In this document: piece by piece, positions 8,460-26,658 of the stretch | How positions within the stretch are numbered: the stretch's first letter is position 1 | Layout of the letters: each line of letters begins with the position of its first letter | NCBI GenBank assembly: GCA_009869945.1 | Contig: WIXG01000171.1 | Span: 1-64,000 of the forward strand | DNA from: Mesaphorura yosii | Lineage: Eukaryota > Arthropoda > Collembola > Poduromorpha > Tullbergiidae | Reading direction: 5' to 3' | DNA length: 64,000 bases | Translations under genes and position numbers: made by a program | The notes under the pieces: model-generated | The model's database searches: none | The model's input: the letters and a program-made list of their open reading frames with translations, nothing else | Told to the model about the DNA's origin: nothing

Positions 8460-10611
8460 TTACAATTCCTGGCGCCCAGGCCTACCTTGCCCAGCTCCAG
8501 TCCCGTATTTCTTGAGGAGTTGATCCCAAAAATTCATCCTGGACGTGAAATCTTCGCGCTGCACTCTAGAGACCTTGTCAAAATGAAACCATTCGATGGG
8601 CTTGTCCTTTTCCGCTTTTGGCCACCCGGTGGCTACTCCAAGAAAACTGGCGTCCGGTTTCCTTTCAATAAAGGACGCGATAAATTAATCCAAGAAATTA
8701 GGCCAGCCCCAATTATTGAGAAATTCCCCAAATTCGTACCCTGTTTTAGCGAAGCTCACGAGGACCTTCACAAACTTCTTCGAATACTTCGTGGATTCCG
8801 TATTGCTCGGATTCAGGGGTCCATATGTGGGTCCACTAAACACGTACGGTTGCTCTTCGCCATGCAGCACCTTTCCAGCATACTTTTGCGGGACCAGACC
8901 CCGAAATCCGGCGTCTGGTGCCAAGTAGTCCCATATGTACGGGTACACGTCCGCACCATGTCTCACGTACTGCTGCACCGTCGCCCGGATCCCGTGGATG
9001 AAATAACGGTCGCTATGCATCAGCTCAAGCGCGTCTTCATTCTCTTCCACACGCGCGCCCGTAGACCCGAAGTAAAATTTCCTAATTTCTTGCGCTACTT
9101 CAGCGTACTTAGCCACGGGCACTTCGCCTCCATGCAGGACTTGAGTAAATGGCACGATTTTGTCCCAGTTGTCATTCAACATGCTCGTGAGCTGCGGGGT
9201 AATGAGCATGGGAAGGACGAAGAAGGTACCTTCGTTTCGGTCAAACCCGATCAGCAGGGAAACCTTTTTAGCGAAGCGCCCGGCTCGAAAAAGGGCTTCG
9301 GGGTGGTCGGGTAGGAAAGTGGACGCGGATCCGTTTTGAACTTCGATGGACGGTCCGAATGGAAGCGGGATGGGAATGTCCAACGTCCAATCCTGAAGGT
9401 AACAAAAAGATGAAATATTTACAATAAGTAAAATATTCTAGGCCCGAAAACAAGTCTTTTGCTGGCACGATTTTTTTATCAGTATCGGTGCACTACTTAC
9501 GGGTACAGGGTGGAGGCTTGCACTCTTTTCGATTATTTCCTTCGCATCTCTAGCCAGTAAACATTTCACAAGTGTCTGCGAGGTCGATACGGGGCAGCCT
9601 ACGGCTTTGCCGAGCTCCGTCGCATAGAAATTTGGGTTTGGATTGATTGCCCATGGATTGAGTGCCGATCCACTTGCAGCCATCGCGTGCTTAAATAAAC
9701 CTTTGCTGAGTGGACTCAGGAGATGGAAAATGACCGACCCACTCCCAGCACTGCTCCCGTAGATGGTGACAAGCGCCGGATCACCACCAAAATGTGCAAT
9801 GTTGTCATGCACCCATTTCAGTAGTAGAGTTTGGTCTTTGAGGCCCATGTTACCCGACGCCAGCTGGGAATTGGCCGAATCTTTGCTGTTCATGTGGCCA
9901 ACATTCAAGAACCCAAGTGACGAGAGGCGGTAGTTGAACGTCACGAGTACGACGTCTTCATCCATCAAATAATCAGCGCCAAAATCGGCTCCCGACCCAA
10001 TCTGCAATGAAAGTCAAGTCAAATCAGTCAGTTCTTAATATGATTGAAGTCACACCAACTAGCTGGCATCCTCAGTTAGGGCATGCGAAATTGCTTTTTT
10101 TACAAAATTTATGTTGGGTATGTTCTAATTAATTATGACCCCGATCTAGCTGATCTAATCAAGAATTAATCGAATATGTTACCATGAACCCACCGCCATG
10201 GATGTAGACGATGACCGGCTTTAATTTGCCATCATTATCAGTGACAGTGCCGGTGGTGCTGGTAAACACATTCGCATAAAGACAGTCCTCAGATCCGACC
10301 GCCTTCCCCCCGTCGTAGTGGTTGAAGAGCCCCACTTGCACGCAGAGAGGCGGCGGAGTAGTCTGGCGCCTTGTACCGGTCCAACTGGGCAATGGGGCAG
10401 GTTCTGGTGCCTGGAATCGAGCTGGAGGAGTCTTCGCATAAGGAATGCCGAAGTACGAGTAGAATTCGGCTCCATTTCGAGATTTGGAGGGCACCCCTTG
10501 TAGGAGACCTTGTGGCAGGTTAACAGTCGGTGGATCTGCTGCTCCTACTGCCACCACGCTGATTGCTGCAAAGCAAAGTGCAGAAATGACAAGGAGGACT
10601 CTGGTTTCCAT
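8460..10611 (-). CDS. Secreted carboxylesterase (type-B esterase family)
   Basis: An alpha/beta-hydrolase that cleaves carboxylic esters; the family includes juvenile-hormone esterases, detoxifying esterases and cholinesterases. The ATG at 10611 opens a signal peptide. Exon 1 has the conserved FGIPYAK and EDCLY motifs and the oxyanion-hole HGGGF. Exon 2 (to about 9440) has the nucleophile elbow GSSAG. Exon 3 has the acid residue in RNEGTFF and the histidine in LHGEEQPYVF, so the triad is complete. Exon 3 runs to SFAKTG, where a GTACGA donor follows; a CCAG acceptor rejoins frame at F-LGVATGWPKAEKD, the usual C-terminal block, ending at 8460-8462. Without this last intron the frame stops early at 8685. 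The substrate cannot be told from sequence. Part of the exon 3/intron junction is duplicated at 11417-11479. Confidence 0.9.
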
Positions 10612-15649: not shown

Positions 15650-15919
15650 TTATTTACCATTATTAAAACGGTTTAATTTTAGCCAGTCGCATTGTGCTAG
15701 AACCAAAGCCTGATTGCCATGCGCCCGCGCTAGAGTCCAAGTACAATCCAAAGAATTTGACGAGAGGTTGTACACGCTCAAGCTGAGCGCGTCATATCGA
15801 TCGCCTTGTGACGATCTGCGCCGATGCGAGGGGCGCCCATTTGCAACTGGAGTTTGCATTGGTTTTATGGCGACGGTGCAGTAAAGCACCGTCAAAGCAA
15901 GTAACCACAGTGACACCAA
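15650..15919 (-). CDS. Possible exon of a small secreted protein
   Basis: The open frame starts with a strong hydrophobic signal-like segment (LVSLWLLALTVLYCTVA) followed by a basic linker and a part with a C-T-W motif vaguely like the start of a CUB domain. There is no ATG at the start of the frame. A TAG just upstream could be a splice acceptor (GCATGTAG), so an upstream exon would have to supply the start. A possible GTAAAT donor lies at the end. No partner exon could be traced. Confidence 0.25.
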   Translation of the reverse strand: MVSLWLLALTVLYCTVAIKPMQTPVANGRPSHRRRSSQGDRYDALSLSVYNLSSNSLDCTWTLARAHGNQALVLAQCDWLKLNRFNNGK

Positions 15920-16476
15920 TTTCTACATGCTGGCAATCAAATTCAGTCTGGTCGTTTGTGATGACGTTACTCGTGGCTGATGTGCTATTTATACCTTTTC
16001 GTACCTGAACTTAGCGATGGGCAACAGATACGAAATCTCTTTATTAACATCGACCCAAGGAATGCATCATTAAAACTCAATTTTATTGTTATCCCTTTGT
16101 ATCGAGACCTAGCTTCCTTCGATAAAGGATGTGGACTACGTCGTGGGGTCGCCTGTAACGGATATCAGCACCTTCGTCAATGGTTACATGCTGACCAGTT
16201 ACTTCAACATTTACTACGCGGTGGGAGGATCGCGGTCGACATCAACACATTGCAAATTGCTTTGCATAATTCACAAAAGGTGTCAAGGTCAAATTTCAAA
16301 TCAGAGGGAGTACAAGCATGGCTGAGGGCCGCAGTTGCATCACTCTTATGTCCCTCGTTCGCCAGTTCAAATACATCAATATTTGGCTTGACTTGGCTTC
16401 GGACCATGTGTTTTTCCCCTACCAGTTGATGTTTGATGACGTTCAACACTTGAACCTAATTCCCAGGTATTGGAGT
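15920..16476. other. Unresolved region with short open frames
   Basis: Several overlapping plus-strand frames (15980-16429 and 16131-16325) are open, but none has a clear start, domain or splice context. It lies just past the 3' end of the ankyrin gene. Confidence 0.35.
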
Positions 16477-18303
16477 TCACGCAATTGCACAACATTTATT
16501 GCATCTTTGAGGGTCAGGTCGCGGTTTGAAGGAGCCGCCACGCTCAGCACCTGCCACTGAGTCAGCTCCGCGTGGTGCGACTCCAGGGGCTGCCGCACTA
16601 TACTGTTGACGGAGCAGGTACTCAACAACTTGAGTGTGGTCACGAGCGGCCGCGAAGGCAATCGGAGGCGGGTGTCCGCTGTTCACAACTGCTCCGTGCT
16701 CGACGAGACATTGGACGACGGGAAGAAAGCCGACGTGTGCAGCGAGTTGCAGTGGATTGAGCCCTGCTGCCATTTCCTGTGCCACACGATTGACGCTCAC
16801 GCCTCGCTCACACAAATAATGAACCACCTCCAGGTACCCGTGCTCAATGGCGAAAGCGAGTGGATCTGCACGAGTGGAACCGGGCACGTGGGCAGGTTCC
16901 AGCTCCGCGCCTGCTTTGGTCAGTAGCTCAAGGATGCCGTCCGCCTTGACTTGGTCCAACTCCGGCTTTGTTTTTGCAACCAACGCGAAGATAATGGGTG
17001 AAAGACGAAGTTTGGCCAAGTTTGGATCCGCGCCTGCCTCCAGCAAGAAAGCGACCACGGGAAGTTGCTGGCTACCAATTGCTCCCATCAGCGCCGTGAC
17101 CTGGCCTTTCTGCAGCAACGCGTTCAGGTCCGCACCGTTTTGCACCAGGCACCGAACACTGTCCAATGCGCCGGCCTTCGCCGCCGTGAAAAGCGGGCTC
17201 TCGTCATTCTTGCTCCTCACCTCAACCTTAGCCCCGGCTTCAATCAGCCACTCGAGCACAGCGTAGTGGCCCGATCCGGCGGCAAGGTGGAGCGCTGTCA
17301 ATCCGTCCGAAGTCGGCGCCTCCAGCTGGGCGCCAACGTGCACCAGGTGCTTGACTGTGGCCAAGTAGCCACGACATGCCGCCATGTGCAGAGCTGTGCC
17401 CTTCACACAGCCGTCTGTCGCATTCACGTCGGCTCCTTGTTCCACGAGAAATTGGACAATGTCCACCAGATCCCTCGGCTCGCTCAGGACGATTCCAGTG
17501 TAGTCGATGGTTCCGTTGTCCCGCTTAAAGAAACCGATCCTCTCGTCGCGCCCCATCGCAGCCAGATGCAGGGCGCTGTACCCAATCGTGGTCGTTGTGA
17601 GCACCGGTGCTCCGCTCTGGACGAGGGTCTGTACCGACTCCAAGCTGCCGCTCCTGGCAGCATGATGCAGGGGAGTCTTTCCGTCTGCATCGAACACGGA
17701 CAAAGCTGCTCCGGCTAGTACGAGGGCCTTGATCATACCTGCATGGCCGCCCATTGCAGCGACGTGAAGTGGAGTCAGGCCCCCGACTCGGCTCGCTGTG
17801 CTCGGCTTCAGCTTGAGTGTGTCGAGGAGAAACTCAAGAACCGCCGCCTGCTCAAAAATGACGGCGATGTGCAACGGAGACGCGAACTCGTTGCTGGAGA
17901 AGTCTACTCGCTTGGCACTGGCGCCATCAGCCAAGTACTTGAGTATGTTCATGTCTCCCCGGCGGACTGCGATGTGGAACGGGCTGAAGGTACCGTCGTA
18001 CAGGGTCAGACTCAGGCCTGGGTTCTTCTCCAGGAGGTACTGCAACATGTCCAGGCGGGAGTGGTTGACCGCTACGTGTGCAGCAGTGATTTTCCTGCCC
18101 TCGGCGCCCACGTAATGCTGGAACGCGTCCACGAGCATTCGGTACAGGGCAGGATTGTTGGCTGGTTGCTGTAGGATGAGTGCCATCGGCCCCAAAAATG
18201 ATTCAAAAAGCGCCTGCGTGACACACTCGTTCTTCCGCAAGTCGGACTCGATTTTGCTGACCTCACTGTCCAGCTCCGGAATCCTGTGTGGCCCGGAGTT
18301 CAT
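16477..18303 (-). CDS. Ankyrin-repeat protein, intronless coding region, CaaX-like C-terminus (608 aa)
   Basis: One uninterrupted ORF from the ATG at 18303 to the TGA at 16477. After about 65 N-terminal residues it is almost entirely ankyrin repeats, roughly a dozen, shown by repeated TPLHVAA / TALHLAA helices and GAD-VNA turns. Ankyrin repeats bind protein partners; no enzyme domain is present. The tail after about residue 565 is low-complexity and basic and ends ...NKCCAIA. The last four residues (CAIA) fit a CaaX prenylation box, which would anchor the protein to membranes. A likely 5' UTR intron is seen: GTAAGC donor near 18651 and ACTAG acceptor near 18330, with a TATA box upstream, so it is a spliced host gene. 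No specific ortholog is recognised. Confidence 0.85.
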   Translation of the reverse strand: MNSGPHRIPELDSEVSKIESDLRKNECVTQALFESFLGPMALILQQPANNPALYRMLVDAFQHYVGAEGRKITAAHVAVNHSRLDMLQYLLEKNPGLSLTLYDGTFSPFHIAVRRGDMNILKYLADGASAKRVDFSSNEFASPLHIAVIFEQAAVLEFLLDTLKLKPSTASRVGGLTPLHVAAMGGHAGMIKALVLAGAALSVFDADGKTPLHHAARSGSLESVQTLVQSGAPVLTTTTIGYSALHLAAMGRDERIGFFKRDNGTIDYTGIVLSEPRDLVDIVQFLVEQGADVNATDGCVKGTALHMAACRGYLATVKHLVHVGAQLEAPTSDGLTALHLAAGSGHYAVLEWLIEAGAKVEVRSKNDESPLFTAAKAGALDSVRCLVQNGADLNALLQKGQVTALMGAIGSQQLPVVAFLLEAGADPNLAKLRLSPIIFALVAKTKPELDQVKADGILELLTKAGAELEPAHVPGSTRADPLAFAIEHGYLEVVHYLCERGVSVNRVAQEMAAGLNPLQLAAHVGFLPVVQCLVEHGAVVNSGHPPPIAFAAARDHTQVVEYLLRQQYSAAAPGVAPRGADSVAGAERGGSFKPRPDPQRCNKCCAIA

Positions 18304-18676
18304 GTTGCAAATTGCAGTGAAATGTAGACTCCTAGTTTGTCGATTAATGCAGGGCGGAGGAGCAGCAACACTTGCAACAGTTCGCGAACTATTGAAATTG
18401 TGATTCCCAGACGGATGGGCTGTGACTCATTTTGTCGTACGTGTTGCATATGCTTTATCGCACTAAGCCCACACCCAGAGTCAGTCAGTGAACGAGAGCG
18501 AGAGCAAAAGATAATGAGACACTTATTTCTTCCTCTGAATTTTGTACTTGCGATATCTGCGAATGCAAGCATGAACGAGGGAGAACGTATCCTAACATTG
18601 TCGAGTTTTAATTTACACAAGACGCAAAGACAAATCCTCCTGCTTACCTTCAGAATGCTGTTGCCTGAGTGAATCA

Positions 18677-18689: not shown

Positions 18690-20190
18690 CTCTCATGGAC
18701 AACTTGGTACATGCAATAAGAATCATGAAGAATTAGCCAATCTGGATAAATCCGATTAGTTTGACGTCAATGCCATCCCAAAAGGTAGTTCAAATGATCG
18801 CAGGTGCGGGTGCTCACCTCCGACGTCACCATATCAATTAAATTTTTCTCATGCATGGTCCAAAGGTGGGTAGAGTCCAAAACGGGATTGTGAATTGTGT
18901 GTTCGTTCTTAACGCAGACTCGTATCTACGTGTAGAGATTCTCTTTTCTGTTAGAGTGCGTAAAAATAGAAACTAGTTCATGGTCAAACACGGTGCTGTG
19001 CCGCGGTTCGAGTTCGCCATCTTTGGCTTCGAAAAATGTGCATACGGGCACATTTAAGTACGAATAAGTAGGCTAGAGTATCACAATGTCATAGAAAATT
19101 CAGTGGACAGTGGAAATTTGGCTCTCATTCTGAAAAGAACAAAAATGAAAACTCATCATGCTCAAAAGTAGAATCCAGATTGTACGGTTGGCTAAATATT
19201 TCAACATTTTAGCTTGTCATTTCACTTTGTGAATTAGAGTTCAGGTTAGGGCACTGTACAGCATATTTAAAGTAAACTGAATGTTCATTTCTCTTTTCGA
19301 AGCCATTCAATGCGAGGCAAGAGTCAGTCGTCGACACTCTGCTGGACAGTTAACATTGTCATAAGCATTGTGAGTATTTGTCATCATTACTGGTCAAGTC
19401 CGCTAGAATCAGTTGTCCAGTCGAGTGAGTGTCCGTGCCACTCTGTCAATTCCTAACCCCTGTCGTCTCATCATCATCAGAACCATTCATTCCAGTCCTC
19501 TCATTCTCCGCTGAATACAGATCTTCAGTTTGGATTCAACAGTTTGCAATCTACGGGTTATCTGCGCTGAGCTCTGATGTCTTTATCCGCGCGTTTGCAA
19601 ATTGGGTATTGACCTGTCCATTTTTATTGACTATTGACTCTAAGATCAATTCATGGAAATGGTGGTATTAAAAGAAACAATAAATACTGTATTGCACAAA
19701 TTTGCGAATTCAATGGAAAAACAGTAAAATCCAGCACAAGCTTCTGAGCTAAGTAAAATATTAATCAGTTTAACGATAAGATAGCCACGATCCACAGTTC
19801 GTTTGTTCGCAGTCAATGAGTTCGCGTCATGCTGTTAGCTGTGACAAATTACATTACTCATTTAATAAATATTGGCGATGCTCTCAACATAATAAAAACC
19901 TAATCGTTTACAAACTCACATGCGTGATCTGCGTTGTCGAATATGTGGGTTTTTGCTTTCAATCAAAAGTGATAAGAGGCGTATCAGGGCAAGCAATTAG
20001 ACTGGACACCGTCGCCAATAAAATATATTTTACTCCAGTCACACTGAACCCATTTAATTTTGTTACCACATCTTCAGTTGTTAGAAGTTGCGCCTCAATT
20101 GGTGCCACCGCGAGATATAAGAAGCTATAACTAGAAGCGCAATTAACTGTGAGACTGCCAACGACACAATTTTGATCGAATAACGTACAT
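18690..20190. other. Intergenic, no gene seen
   Basis: AT-rich spacer with short plus-strand frames (19429-19671 and 19816-20130) lacking domains or exon context. Confidence 0.5.
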
Positions 20191-21357
20191 TTAAACTACA
20201 GCCAGCAGGATCGAGATGAATGACTGCGAAAGGTAGGACACGTACTCAACCTTTGTCGACCTCTCGACCACAAACTGCCCGGCGATGATGCAATGAATTG
20301 GTCTACAGGAATCCACAATTTTCTGGAGTACAGTGTCGTGATAACTCCTATCAGTCGACCGGATCTTGATTGAGCGTATCAACTCGACGGAGAGACCCGA
20401 CACATCGCCCATGGCCGATAGTGTGCATATAAGTTGGCCAAGACCAAACGGAGATGCCAACGGGAACAACACGTATACCCAGAATTCAGCCACGTGATGA
20501 AATTTTATGGTGCCGTATAGGCAGAAGAGTGTACAGATCTCCATGCACATCTTGAACGTGCCGAACAGAATTGAGCAGAACCCGTTGTTGTACATTGTTG
20601 ACAGAATGATCAACGAGCGGTACATTTCAGTCGCCTGGATGTTCAATTCCTTACCGCCGCCTGGGCCTAATCCAGACCTTATTGCCTTCTGCCAGACGAT
20701 GCTCGTCTTTAAGTACGCGTAGCTAAGATAGAATGAGAACCAGTTGTTAGTAATCATTTTCCAGAGGGTGAACGTCTCGAGCGAGACGCAGGCACCAAGA
20801 AGAAAACCATTCTGCCACTGAGCCGGAACCATTGAGAAGTAGTTGAACTTGTGGTACGGTTTTATGATCGAGAGCACTGGGGCCACCATGCAAATGAGGG
20901 TAAGGTAGACTGGCAGGATGTAGAACAGGTTGTCGAGACGCGATGGGCGAGCATATTCTTTACCCAGGTATTTTTTCCCTTGCATCTTGTTGAAGCACAG
21001 CAACTGATTCACGATGCTGCACAACTCGGACGGATTCAGGGTTGCTCCGACCTGCTCGATGAAGGTCGACGAGTAGGCGATGACCATAAGGAACTGGAGC
21101 ACGACGGAGTAGTGCAGAGTCTGGAACTCATACTGCGTGTACCCAAAAGGTAATCCGGGGATCAGACGCACTATGACGTAGCCAGCGTGGAAACCGGTTA
21201 GCGCCATGTTCACATTGCGGATCCATTTGATCCAAACTGATTTTGTAGGTAATAGCTTGCTGAAAGACTCCGCCGAGTTCCATGTAAGTGGAAAATTTGT
21301 GACCGATGCGAAGGCTGCGCACAGTTCAAGCATCCGGTGCTCCTTCTTCGTCAACAT
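20191..21357 (-). CDS. Multi-pass chemoreceptor-like membrane protein (388 aa)
   Basis: Single-exon ORF with ATG at 21357 and TAA at 20191. It has about seven hydrophobic segments spaced over the length, short loops, and a C-terminal part with a SCRPIHCIIAG block before the last helix. Size and topology are those of the arthropod gustatory/odorant receptor superfamily. I infer a lineage-specific, fast-evolving chemoreceptor expected in sensory-neuron membranes. The canonical TY-x5-QF ending is absent, unlike the receptor at 39.7-41.3 kb, so the two belong to different subfamilies. Family assignment rests on topology and context, not on a diagnostic motif. Confidence 0.6.
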   Translation of the reverse strand: MLTKKEHRMLELCAAFASVTNFPLTWNSAESFSKLLPTKSVWIKWIRNVNMALTGFHAGYVIVRLIPGLPFGYTQYEFQTLHYSVVLQFLMVIAYSSTFIEQVGATLNPSELCSIVNQLLCFNKMQGKKYLGKEYARPSRLDNLFYILPVYLTLICMVAPVLSIIKPYHKFNYFSMVPAQWQNGFLLGACVSLETFTLWKMITNNWFSFYLSYAYLKTSIVWQKAIRSGLGPGGGKELNIQATEMYRSLIILSTMYNNGFCSILFGTFKMCMEICTLFCLYGTIKFHHVAEFWVYVLFPLASPFGLGQLICTLSAMGDVSGLSVELIRSIKIRSTDRSYHDTVLQKIVDSCRPIHCIIAGQFVVERSTKVEYVSYLSQSFISILLAVV

Positions 21358-22016
21358 TTTGGAGTCCTATTCCGGTCAGGCGAGGCAGAACTGGACAAGG
21401 CAGGATCAAGTGTCAGACTAATATGATAGCAGCCCTCAATAAACGGGCGAAGGATGGACGAACAGGTGACGAAGGCATTGCGAAATATAAAATTCGATAA
21501 TCAGTGGAAAATTTCCACTAATTATCGTTCCACGCTCTTTAGGTCTTTGGAATTATTTATTCATTGAAGTCAATCTTGCATTTCACACCTTGAACTACTA
21601 CCGGTGCAATTAAAATAGAAATAGAGTGGTTTACGGGCACAGATAAGAGTTTAATTTGATGCGATTTGGATTTGATATTGATCTTTCAAACACACTACAG
21701 TCACTGTGTCATCAATTTAGTCAATCTTAATTTCAAACATTAGCTTGGATCTATTTCAGAATTGTAGACAGAAGAGCTTAATAATTGCCAGTCACAACGT
21801 TTCTTGTTTCTCAGAATTTCTGAACGTCAAACGCCATGTCGGTAATTAGTGAAAGGTGATCCAATACTTTTCATACTATTGCATTGGTAAAAACAACAGG
21901 AGAGAGGTCTTGTGCACTAAAATTGTCGCCCAAACTCGCCACCGCCGAACTCTCACTTACAAGGAACTATGTACTGAAAATGTGGACTACACCACAAATG
22001 CAAAGGAGTAGATATT
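21358..22016. other. Intergenic, no gene seen
   Basis: AT-rich upstream region of the chemoreceptor-like gene. Nothing is recognised. Confidence 0.5.
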
Positions 22017-22365: not shown

Positions 22366-24613
22366 TTAGTACATGGATTCCTTCTGCGGAATCAGTCCGC
22401 AATCGCAATCCAGCCTCCCGATAAATTCCTCGACAACCGGCTGCAAATGGTGAAACCGTTGAACGCCTTCTTCATCTTCCGCGTCAGCCACGTACTCCTT
22501 CCACACTCCATCGACGATTGGCGCAATCAGTTTCCGTTCTTTCCGCTTACAATTTTGGAACAGTTCGAGAAAGGGTTCAATTTGGCCCAACGCAGTTGCG
22601 AAAACTGCTCGTCTCAGTGGCTTGTTCTCAGCTTTGGCAAGCATCTCCAAAATTGGCTCATGATAGAGGGGATTCGTAGCAATCGCCATCGAGCTGTTGG
22701 CGACGCCGCCGGTACTTTCTTCCCAAATGATAAAACTCGCATCCTTCAATTCTTTTAATTCCTTTTTGGGAAACCCCAATTCTCTTCCCATTCCGTACAG
22801 AATCAGAACGGGGATTCTCGGCGTATACTTGTTGGTCAGTGCGATAAAGTACAGCAAGCATTCCAATTCTGGTCGTGTATTCAGGCGACTAGTTTTCAAA
22901 TTCAGATTGAGGAGAACGTCAAGTTGAAGGTCTCGACTGCCGACGCCGTCTGCATTTGGAAGTCCCACTTTCTTCAGCATTCCACTCAACCCGCACGATT
23001 CATCTGAGATCATTACAGTGCGAGTTTCAAAGTTGTACTCTTTGACCACAGCTTGAACAAATACTTCCAACGAAACCGGGTACCATTTAAATACGTTATA
23101 AATGGCTTGAATCGCTGTGCAATTTCGTTCATTCAGTTCAGCATTTATTGAGCGAAGCAGTCCATTCTGAAACTGTGGCAGCGTCAAAACACCAAATTCC
23201 AAAACCACATCACTGGACCTATTGCCAGTCACCAGTTCGTTGTGCTCATCCACGCAAAATATGATTTTGAACTTGGGATTACCGAGTACTCCTCCAATTC
23301 GCTCCGCCATGACTCGTGGGCTGTCAAAGTTCTCAAACACGAATGTTGTCACTCGTCCCGTCTTCGCAAGCTTCGCCAAAATTTCTTCCAGTATCTTTTG
23401 CCAACTCGATCTCGAGCTTTCCGCGACAGAAGTGTGCAGCTCCTTGGTAGCGATTCTTTCAAGTTCGGCACAGAATCCCGCGTCTACCAATGTTGAACCT
23501 CTGATACTAATGATATGGTGATAGAATTTGTCGTAGTCTTTAAAATGTTGCTTCAAGAAGTCTACTTTACCGGACAAACGGTTGCCAACAAGTATAACAG
23601 TTTTGTTACTGGCGATCCGCTGATGTAGCTCTCCAGATAGGATGTAAATATCTGGAAATTGGATCTCAAGGTTTATGTTTACAAGGCGTGGAGGAGGAAG
23701 GATGAATGGTTGAGCGATTACTTCTGTCTTGATGGATTTCGTCAGCACATCGCGAATGAAGAAAGGATCCTTGAGTGAACGAAGCACGTAATTTCCTTTA
23801 TTTTGAAGTTTTTCAATTTCCCATGAGAATGCTTGGCGGTACAGGCGATCTACAGGCTTCACGGCAAATATACCCTTCTTTCTGTAGTACTGGTGGCTGG
23901 GGTTAGGAGATACAATAAGGCCCATGCCTTCCGACGAGTAAATTGGCCGATGAATCAATTGAAATGAGTAAAGGCTCCGGCTAACCAAAATCCAGGCCAG
24001 AGTCTGATGAGTTTGAAGACCAAATCTCGAGATCAATCTTGTATCCCGATATACTATCGAATTGTTTCCTTTTATCTCTCGATTTTCCTTTAACGACAGC
24101 CCTGGTCAAAATTTGTACATTTTCTGCATGTTGGCTTTTACAGGCCGCCAATGTCAATTTGAAGCCATTCTCATCAATGTACTTGACAATTCGATCCCAT
24201 GCATCTTCTGCCAAGTATTGAATCAAGAGTTTACTGTTTTTACGGCTGACCATGTAAAACACGTGCTGGAATTTGTCCAACAATTCAATTGCAGTGTCCA
24301 TCAGGAGTGCACGTCTCAATTGGTCCAGATCTTGCTCCAGTTCACCAGAATTATACAGAAATGCCTCGGTCACTTTCTTTGCTTTTTTGTATAGTTTTTC
24401 TGTCGCAGAGCTTCTTACAATCCACTCAACTACCCGAATGCCTGGAACTACCTCTAGACAGTCTACAAAATTTGCCACTCTCTCTGTCGTTCTTGTACTT
24501 CCCAATTCTTCGTTTCGCATGTATTCCGTGTGCGCTTTCAGTTGTTCTTCTGCAAATTCGCAAAAATGCGACACAAAATTACGAAAACGTTCTTTGAAAA
24601 GGTTATCAGACAA
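22366..24613 (-). CDS. P-loop NTPase, STAND/NLR-like (at least two exons)
   Basis: Two overlapping minus-strand frames (24613-23981 and 24036-22366) must be joined by a short intron or shift near 24000; a GTTAGCC donor follows the first frame. The N-terminal 200 residues are helical and charged, without a domain I can name. The second part has a Walker-A-like GNRLSGKV (about 23586-23563), in which the usual Ser/Thr after GK is Val. An hhhhEN segment (TTFVFENFDS) fits a Walker B/sensor region, followed by KIIFCVDE. The size and order fit STAND ATPases, which oligomerise as signalling platforms. The first codon of the long frame is TTG; an in-phase acceptor (CATTTAG) lies just upstream, so a further 5' exon is likely. 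It is divergent from the CARD-DD gene next door. Confidence 0.6.
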
Positions 24614-24932
24614 AATTTCGTTTTGTAATTCGTAAAGATACTAAATGCAAACGTGAGACTCAAATACTGTAAGTAAGCTGGCTGTTCTTGCTAAGCGTTC
24701 GTTAAGCGGACCTCAATTCAACTCCGTAGAAATAAATCTGTGTTTGATGTGTTAAATTCTCATGCTCTTATCTTATCTATCTCGAGTGGACAGTTAACGG
24801 ACAACGGAATGCCAGATAACCCTGCTTAAGCAGGAAACTCCATTGCGCAGCGTCCAACAATTTTGACAACACTCGCCTGCGGATTTCTTTTTGATTCAAC
24901 TCATCGTCGCTGAACCCAATTTTACCTGCGAA
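24614..24932. promoter_or_regulatory. Shared upstream region of the NTPase and CARD-DD genes
   Basis: About 320 bp separate two head-to-head genes with no other coding sequence of note. It may act as a bidirectional promoter. Part of it may be the first exon and intron of the NTPase gene. Confidence 0.4.
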
Positions 24933-25711
24933 ATGTCCAACGAAAAGATTCGTTCCGTGCTGCGTGAAAATAATAACTTGCTGCTGGAAAATTTGAATTC
25001 CGACCCACTGGTGCAGTATCTGTGGATGAAAGGAGTGATTAATGACCGAGACAAAGATATTGTACTATCCGCTCGCACCAGATTCCAACAAAATGGGGAA
25101 CTACTGGATTGCCTACGGAGAAAGTAAGGTTGCATTAATTATGACAATTTAATTCGGCCTAAATTAAAAAATTATTCAGGCCTGACAGCGCCCTAGAACA
25201 CATGATTCACTTTTTGATTGAAGACGGCACTCAACCGCATGTCTTATCAGCTCTCCAGCGTTCCCTCGAGAAACTAGGGTCAGCCAACGACGGAGGCGCA
25301 GCATCGAGCAAAGCGATCCCCAGTGGCGACTTTGTTTTGAATTCAAGAGGAGCTGTCAAAGTTCGGGATTCGGTCCTTAATAACGTCGACGTAATGATGA
25401 ATTGGCGCATCATCAAAGACGATTTCGTCGATACTGCCCTGGATATTTACAATGTGGAAAAAGAACTAAGGGATGGTCAAGTCGGTCCAGCTGTATTGCA
25501 AACTCTTGGATTGTGGATTAGTAGAAGGAGCGGCGAGGCCACATTTGACAAGATGATAAAGATTTTTGAGAAACACAAATGTACCAAATTGATCCGTAAG
25601 GCTTTAACCTTTTGACCTGTTTTACCATCGTTTTACTATTTACTTCATTTACTTGTCTTTGAATTTACAGAAGAAATTAAGGAGCAGAAAGAAGACATTC
25701 GGAAGGCGTAG
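24933..25711 (+). CDS. CARD plus death-domain adaptor (CRADD/RAIDD-like, 215 aa)
   Basis: Three exons: 24933-25123, 25180-25595 and 25671-25711, with GTAAGG donors and TTCAG/TTACAG acceptors and phases that join cleanly. The N-terminal ~90 residues look like a caspase-recruitment domain: a helical bundle with NLLLENLNSDPLVQYLWMKG, then NDRDKD, then a LLDCLRRKP-type helix. The C-terminal ~90 residues fit a death domain, with a DIYNVEK helix and a core LGLWISRRSGEATFDKMIKI like the W-x-x-R-x-G-x-x-A-T-F segment of CRADD. CARD then DD, at about 200 residues, is the layout of CRADD/RAIDD, which links PIDD-type platforms to caspase-2. The assignment is from motif order; sequence is divergent. If exon 3 is not used, the frame stops at 25615. 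Confidence 0.7.
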
Positions 25712-25808
25712 ATAGCAATCAATTGCTGACTTGTTAATCTTTCATTTAACTCCGTATTAAAAGTATTGTGATTGCAAAGAACACTGTACGGAAATACTGA
25801 GCATTTAA

Positions 25809-26298
25809 TTAAGGTCTTCGGGAGACCCACTCCCGAATTCCGTTCGTGCCAAAACACAAGCGACTGATGCGTGCTCAACGCCGGGTAATTGTCCAGGAGT
25901 CCAGGCCGAGCCTCGGTGTGCATCTGCAGGTATGCCGCCACGCAGAGGTCGGCGATCGACAACCGGCTGCTGACTAGGTATTTCGACCTCGTGTGGCCTT
26001 CAATATTGGTCTGCAAGCGAGCCAAGTAGAATGGGAATGTTTCTTCATACAACTTGTGCTCTAGCTTCTTCTTGGTGGGATCCGGGTCCAAGCAGGCCGT
26101 GAATTGCGCAATTCGTAGGTCAACCATCGCCTCGATTAATTCGTCGCATTTGGTCGACTCCCAGTCATTGTCTCCGGCCAGATTGTGGGTGCGACCAAGA
26201 TAACGGAGAATTATTCCCGGTTGGGTGATGATTTCCTCGTTGCCGACGTGGAGAATAGGGAGATTGCCCCACGGAGTGCGTGCAGGGACAAAGAACAC
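25809..26298 (-). pseudogene. Sigma-class glutathione S-transferase, frameshifted and N-terminally incomplete
   Basis: The sequence reads TPWGNLPIL, then QPGIILRYLGRTHNLAG, matching the end of the thioredoxin-fold domain, and continues through the all-helical domain (LSIADLCVAAYL; NYPAL). The expected C-terminal block IREWVSRRP followed by a stop is present at 25841-25809 but in another frame; only about 30 bp separate the frames, too short for an intron. In the uninterrupted frame the protein runs on to 25645, into sequence opposite CARD-DD exon 3. The N-terminal part with the catalytic Tyr could not be found; 26300-26475 has stops in all frames. This looks like a pseudogene, or a gene with an assembly error plus an untraced first exon. 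Confidence 0.65.
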
Positions 26299-26658
26299 TG
26301 CGGTGAGCTGGAGCCGCAGCGGTACAACTCATTCTCTAATAATACTTTGCACTGGTGCACCTGTAATCACGGAATTAATTTCATTACTCCCTGCAGCCAG
26401 TACACCGCAGTTTGCTCAGTTAGACCCTTGACCATCAACACGTTAGAAAAATCAGTGCCGCCACCGTGACATTGCTCGTTGTTCGCGGAATATTTCTGAA
26501 GAGGTGGAAAGGTGTTTGCACAGGGGGAAATGGTGGAAGTGGCCGTAGTTTGACGCAGACAAAGCGCATGACTCTAAACTTTCCACACCAAGCATAAAAG
26601 CATTCAGATTTTGCTCAACAGTCTGATTTCATTTCCTAACTCAAATTAAGCATTAAAT
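26299..26658. other. Intergenic / degenerate region
   Basis: May hold the decayed 5' part of the GST. A CATAAAAG element near 26592 could be the TATA box of the kelch pseudogene. Confidence 0.4.

Follow-up and report, generated by a model that had tools for sequence, protein, structure and literature searches.

The described systems that come closest to the locus presented here are the CRADD/RAIDD adaptor of the PIDDosome, the Apaf-1, CED-4 and Dark proteins together with the related expansions of amphioxus and sea urchin, and the paired NLRs of plants. According to the parts of a 2007 survey (PMC2246300) drawn upon here, fly and worm have one NB-ARC each, and proteins combining NB-ARC with a death domain (DD) or a CARD occur in amphioxus, those with a DD also in sea urchin. 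The sections used of PMC3308963 state that no NLRs had been reported at that time from ecdysozoans or lophotrochozoans, and both sources, in these same parts, describe a massive loss of such networks in Ecdysozoa. Plant paired NLRs, as presented in the portions of PMC9528088 cited here, are two linked genes, mostly head-to-head, that share at least several hundred bases of intergenic DNA, and mutation of the sensor P-loop left RGA4/RGA5 and RRS1/RPS4 active. We report a head-to-head gene pair in a 64-kb window (C171:1-64000, the whole stretch of DNA that was analysed) of a 93.0-Mb genome of 1127 contigs. It consists of a gene for a RAIDD-like adaptor and a divergently oriented partner gene, and the same arrangement is found on two other contigs, C1017 and C890.

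The adaptor resembles CRADD/RAIDD in having a CARD followed by a death domain within about 200 aa, and in that the profile of its family finds the RAIDD CARD first in PDB, but here it exists in three or more diverged copies, every one of them adjacent to a partner gene whose family has no name. As in the Apaf-1, CED-4 and Dark group and its amphioxus and sea urchin expansions, NB-ARC genes of this genome have a CARD or a DD in front, and the window partner appears to be a distant NB-ARC relative. This partner differs, however, in that neither a CARD nor a DD can be recognised in it, its N-terminal domain has no name and its P-loop is damaged. Because such DD- and CARD-NB-ARC proteins are described in the cited parts of PMC2246300, the NB-ARC repertoire as such has parallels. 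Like RRS1/RPS4 and RGA4/RGA5, the genes studied here are linked and divergent over a common intergenic region, whereas one of the two is a small CARD-DD adaptor and not a second NLR; the likeness is one of organisation, and common descent is not claimed. For the paired adaptor and partner family, no parallel was found in the open-access literature searched, and neither was any paper on such NB-ARC-death-domain genes of springtails or other arthropods.

The adaptor and its recurrent head-to-head partner

The adaptor (215 aa) is encoded on the plus strand of the window at 24933-25711 by three GT-AG exons, with splice sites predicted from the sequence. Exon 1 (24933-25123) contains the start codon and the first two thirds of the CARD, exon 2 (25180-25595) the end of the CARD, the linker and most of the death domain (from ~25355), and exon 3 (25671-25711) the C-terminus and the stop codon. 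The CARD (residues 8-91) was detected by Pfam with an E value of 3.7e-10 (40.1 bits, cut-off 23.9), and its first half scored 54.4 bits with a leave-one-out in-genome profile. The Pfam Death model reached 14 bits on the adaptor, which is under its cut-off of 22.6, and the genome-wide Death search gave no match in the window. When the adaptor was left out and nine further death domains of the genome served as the profile, its death domain scored 41.0 bits (E 1.1e-11), the best of 499 shuffles reaching 8.5 bits. These leave-one-out scores for both domains indicate that the layout is real, and, as judged from these profiles, the adaptor has a genuine CARD and a genuine death domain in the CRADD/RAIDD order, as the first-pass annotation of this DNA had proposed. 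Moreover, a profile of four adaptors found the human RAIDD CARD (3crd, E 2.7e-5) as its best match in PDB, and its DD half matched FADD (E 0.015). An intron at the last Lys codon (AA|GT[AG]) was observed in 14 of 20 CARD first halves, among them that of the window adaptor, and the C890 CARD also carries it.

The partner lies on the minus strand (22369-24640), and its N-terminal domain corresponds to a 219-aa open frame at 23984-24640, the first in-frame ATG of which is at 24520. The intergenic region shared by the two genes (24521-24932) extends from this ATG to that of the adaptor and thus measures 412 bp, or 292 bp if the end of the partner open frame is taken as its limit. The divergent layout that had been noted for this locus holds, and the length of about 320 bp given for the shared upstream DNA becomes 292 or 412 bp according to the partner start chosen.

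The same domain was found twice more in the genome. The window domain matches a C1017 frame at 9252-9857 (+) with a Smith-Waterman score (SW) of 77, for 49 in the best of 1000 shuffles, and a CARD-DD gene lies on the opposite strand of C1017. A genome search with the C1017 domain led to C890:8780-9286 (+) with an E value of 2e-25, inside a 781-aa open frame, and the minus strand of C890 carries a CARD (59.9 bits) and a DD (28.1 bits) by leave-one-out profiles. Using the same number of shuffles, the SW score was 57 between window and C890 (best shuffle 51) and 259 between C1017 and C890 (best shuffle 54); identity across the copies of the domain is 25-36%. Hence all three confident copies of the N-terminal domain stand head-to-head with a CARD-DD gene, at intergenic distances of 412 bp (window), 473 bp (C1017) and 462 bp (C890). 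As this holds for three out of three copies, the linkage between adaptor and partner is hardly accidental, and the divergent orientation over a common promoter region is conserved within this one genome.

The adaptors are likewise related to each other, with SW scores of 202 for window and C1017 (best of 100 shuffles 52), 211 for window and C890 (best shuffle 45) and 384 for C1017 and C890. The C1017 and C890 copies are thus nearest to each other in both adaptor and partner. A paralogue search of the genome with the window partner returned this partner alone, and a further hit of the C1017 domain, at C192:52150-52344 (E 0.11), was taken as chance. A flanking gene considered as part of a duplicated block (window 20191-21366 against C1017 10202-11101) was rejected, its SW score of 42 being below the 54 reached by the best of 200 shuffles.

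Relation of the partner to NB-ARC proteins

The partner is composed of two open frames, both on the minus strand, one of 219 aa (24640-23984) and one of 579 aa (24105-22369), the latter holding an NB-ARC/winged-helix-like part and putatively joined to the N-terminal frame. Both are free of stop codons and show coding bias over most of their length, mostly in the first frame from ~24570 to 24000 and then in the second from ~23970, with a change of frame near 24000-23940. No upstream first exon was found by eye in the shared DNA; such an exon may have escaped notice, or the window partner may be decaying. Pfam returned zero families above cut-off for both frames, and for the 579-aa frame none at E values up to 10. 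The N-terminal domain, whose family is common to the C1017 and C890 partners, is indeed as unfamiliar as first described, in that Pfam has no family for it. In PDB, the best match of the 579-aa frame had an E value of 0.47, and matches at this level and above were taken as chance. C-terminal ligand-sensing repeats, as they mark NLRs with their NACHT or NB-ARC, were not detected, since no Pfam repeat family matched either window frame or the C890 partner.

A relation to NB-ARC nevertheless emerged when the comparison was made within the genome. Against a profile of 32 in-genome NB-ARC domains, the 579-aa frame scored 11.0 bits (E 0.0028) and ranked first among the 403 entries of the database, which lists it twice; the next-best entry scored 1.6 bits. 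Local hhalign of the window partner to NB-ARC gave a score of 43.5 with a probability of 67-70%, and 16 other open reading frames (ORFs) of the window (>=230 aa) gave at most 16.4. When the window and C890 cores were aligned jointly, the hhalign score was 36.3 (27%); reversing the alignment gave 10.9, and none of 100 column shuffles exceeded 22.8.

The P-loop and Walker B of the partner align in register with those of the in-genome paralogues. The sequence aligned to their P-loop is a degenerate Walker A, GNRLSGK followed by Val-Asp (23566-23586, minus strand), and a Walker B-like FVFENFD (23323-23343, minus strand) is aligned to LFIFDNVE. This Walker A (GNRLSGKVD) has no Ser or Thr after the Lys and does not fit an intact GxxxxGK[ST], and the C890 stretch aligned to it, in a weak alignment, is without the P-loop Lys. 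An MHD-like site (H347-R348) is invariant in 12 aligned NB-ARC paralogues; by eye, its His has no clear counterpart in the window partner, where the alignment is weak. Given the damaged P-loop and the remote profile match, we class the partner as a degenerate NB-ARC relative and not as an active NTPase. As no Ser or Thr follows the Lys, the term 'NTPase' may describe ancestry only, and the damaged P-loop argues against nucleotide hydrolysis by this protein.

GATA sites and the death-fold repertoire

For each gene with a death-fold, an NB-ARC or the partner N-terminal domain, we examined the 400 bp preceding the first domain of this kind. In this promoter set, enrichment is highest, among 2080 hexamers, for GATAAG, with 52 (of 216 occurrences) for 12.3 expected. 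It is present before 34 of the 50 entries, that is, 34 of 48 gene starts, since three entries belong to a single gene (C895); the shared DNA of each pair was counted from both sides. By comparison, GATAAG occurs in 795 of 4000 random 400-bp stretches and before 7 of 35 other window ORFs (>=120 aa), the latter difference being significant (34/48 versus 7/35, Fisher p 6e-6). The GATA signal of the pair promoters recurs before about two dozen NB-ARC death-signalling genes of the genome.

In addition, a tandem GATA word was found in two of the three pairs (window and C1017), ~155 bp before the adaptor start. In the form GATAAGATAAG, it has one copy in the window, between both genes, and one copy in the C1017 pair; as AGATAAGATAAG, it is located at 24767-24778 on the minus strand, 155 bp before the adaptor ATG, and is the sole copy in the 64-kb window. 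In the C890 pair, GATAAG occurs twice as a single site, and the tandem word is absent. Of the eight tandem words in the DNA examined, seven are in the promoter set and the eighth, on C368, is near a weak CARD outside it. Four AGATAAGATAAG matches (C171, C1017, C934 and C368) lie close before death-fold or NB-ARC genes. Since the word was picked by comparing C171 with C1017, C934 and C368 are the only independent cases. The enriched GATAAG and the placement of the tandem word support the earlier suggestion that the pair is co-regulated.

The genome-wide Pfam searches gave 67 places for NB-ARC (52 above cut-off), 26 for CARD (10 above cut-off) and 19 for Death (11 above cut-off), figures that count places, not genes, and are lower bounds. 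The window CARD is among these matches, and the window NB-ARC-like part and death domain are absent from them. Of the 34 NB-ARC stretches examined, 29 have a DD or a CARD upstream on their own strand, a share that is not unbiased because some stretches were chosen through their own CARD or DD. At C895:289-1816, a CARD with the same intron position as in the adaptor is followed on the same strand by a Peptidase_C14 domain, and this locus probably encodes an initiator caspase. Two further arrangements were observed. On C800, an NB-ARC match (15837-16445, minus strand) and a caspase match (18848-19432, plus strand) are divergent and possibly form another functional pair, and at C699:8791-10957 a CARD, a DD and another CARD succeed each other on a single strand, which may represent tandem CARD-DD genes.

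Proposed function and alternative explanations

Taken together, these results are best read as at least three paralogous head-to-head pairs, in each of which a RAIDD-like adaptor and a non-catalytic STAND-like partner would act as a co-regulated death or immune module; we place the probability of this reading at about one half. The layout consists of a CARD-DD adaptor opposite a gene with a previously unnamed N-terminal domain, behind which there would be a degenerate NB-ARC/winged-helix-like core in the window, a weakly similar core on C890 and nothing recognisable on C1017. In such a module, the adaptor DD would dock on DD-NB-ARC sensors and its CARD would recruit a CARD-caspase, following PIDDosome or apoptosome logic. 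A promoter that is driven by GATA sites and works in both directions would yield adaptor and partner together; the partner would bind the adaptor and set its threshold, and its role would be that of a non-catalytic guard or scaffold, not that of an ATP-driven wheel. The balance between adaptor and partner could then be likened to that between sensor and helper in head-to-head plant NLR pairs.

Several observations weigh against this reading, and some of them also bear on two competing explanations. One of these is that the adaptor is an ordinary working RAIDD-like protein and the partners are relics of an old duplicated block, the window copy being a pseudogene and the pairing functionless today. 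Consistent with this, an ATG is missing from the homologous position of the window partner: its first in-frame ATG is the one at 24520, and the C1017 and C890 partners start near the counterpart of the open-frame beginning. Its two frames can be joined only by frame-keeping candidate introns with weak sites, and the C890 frame is continuous. The C1017 partner consists of the N-terminal domain alone, as no NB-ARC-like frame was detected from there to the end of the contig. A fragment at C277:42083-42717 that resembles the C890 partner core has two in-frame stops and no CARD or DD match near it, and is perhaps the relic of a fourth partner gene. Two further points count against the main reading: upstream of the CARD-DD genes of C284 (1.5 kb examined) and C939 (1.0 kb examined) a partner could not be recognised, and the CARDs of the five adaptors do not group together as a single clade. 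The 579 and 219 stop-free codons with their coding bias, the single 781-aa frame of C890 and the head-to-head order kept at three loci despite the low identity between the domains all speak against a relic, and we regard this explanation as unlikely. The other explanation is that the partner is not a STAND protein at all and that its likeness to NB-ARC is the chance resemblance of an unrelated alpha/beta protein. In its favour, the partner has no Pfam family above cut-off and its 579-aa frame no PDB match; the Pfam NB-ARC model itself misses it, both in the scan of the 579-aa frame and among the 67 genome matches, none of which falls in the window. An hhalign run taken as global mode gave 19.1 (8%) for the window partner, the C890 core alone reached a score of 18.0 (0.3%) against the NB-ARC profile, close to the unrelated window ORFs. 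On the main reading itself, the resemblance between the C890 and window cores is weak (SW 57, best of 300 shuffles 54), and single-sequence AlphaFold models were unusable for both 509 residues of the second frame (mean pLDDT 36.4) and 155 residues of the N-terminal frame (mean pLDDT 40.6). A chance resemblance to NB-ARC would, however, have to account for the first rank of the window frame among all database entries, its wide lead over the next ORF in local hhalign and the in-register P-loop and Walker B, and it appears quite improbable. Of the STAND-like P-loop NTPase announced by the first-pass annotation, the remote NB-ARC relation stands, for the window copy, on the in-genome profile and local hhalign; its P-loop is damaged, and the Pfam NB-ARC model does not match it.

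The promoter signal also has points on both sides. Genome-wide, AGATAAGATAAG has 91 matches for 108 of the reversed control; the tandem word is not enriched, and its placement alone is unusual. Promoters of paralogous genes, moreover, cannot be counted as independent, and common descent may account for the sites. GATA sites, classic elements of gut and haemocytes, could mark expression in gut or blood cells, and the pair could serve developmental or gut apoptosis, not immunity, through a conventional PIDDosome-like caspase switch, an explanation with which the RAIDD CARD as top PDB match of the adaptor profile also agrees. The large number of NB-ARC matches above cut-off would suit a repertoire of receptors better than one developmental switch, and we consider this explanation somewhat unlikely.

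If a death or immune module is indeed encoded here, the pairs might tentatively be viewed as an animal counterpart of plant paired NLRs, a view to which we give less than even chances and which is drawn by analogy. It would comprise GATA-controlled DD- and CARD-NB-ARC sensors together with dedicated head-to-head pairs of an adaptor and its cognate pseudo-STAND partner with an undescribed N-terminal domain, and would belong to Ecdysozoa if the organism is an arthropod. A large NB-ARC and death-fold receptor repertoire with paired adaptor-regulator genes would then be present in just 93 Mb, organised as in plant immunity. It would offer a compact system to ask whether cell death is held in check when a signalling adaptor is paired head-to-head with a dead NTPase, and the promoter signature could be used to seek further members.

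Other genes were noted in the course of the analysis. In the window, a glutathione S-transferase frame (25648-26328, minus strand; Pfam GST_C) lies tail-to-tail with the adaptor, and an ankyrin-repeat frame of 649 aa is located at 16480-18426 (minus strand). Elsewhere in the genome, three Condensation-type matches fall in an open frame of 3156 aa at C420:24688-32376, which is probably a non-ribosomal peptide synthetase and would agree with the springtail host presumed in the first-pass annotation; genes of this kind occur in springtails, where they belong to a beta-lactam pathway.

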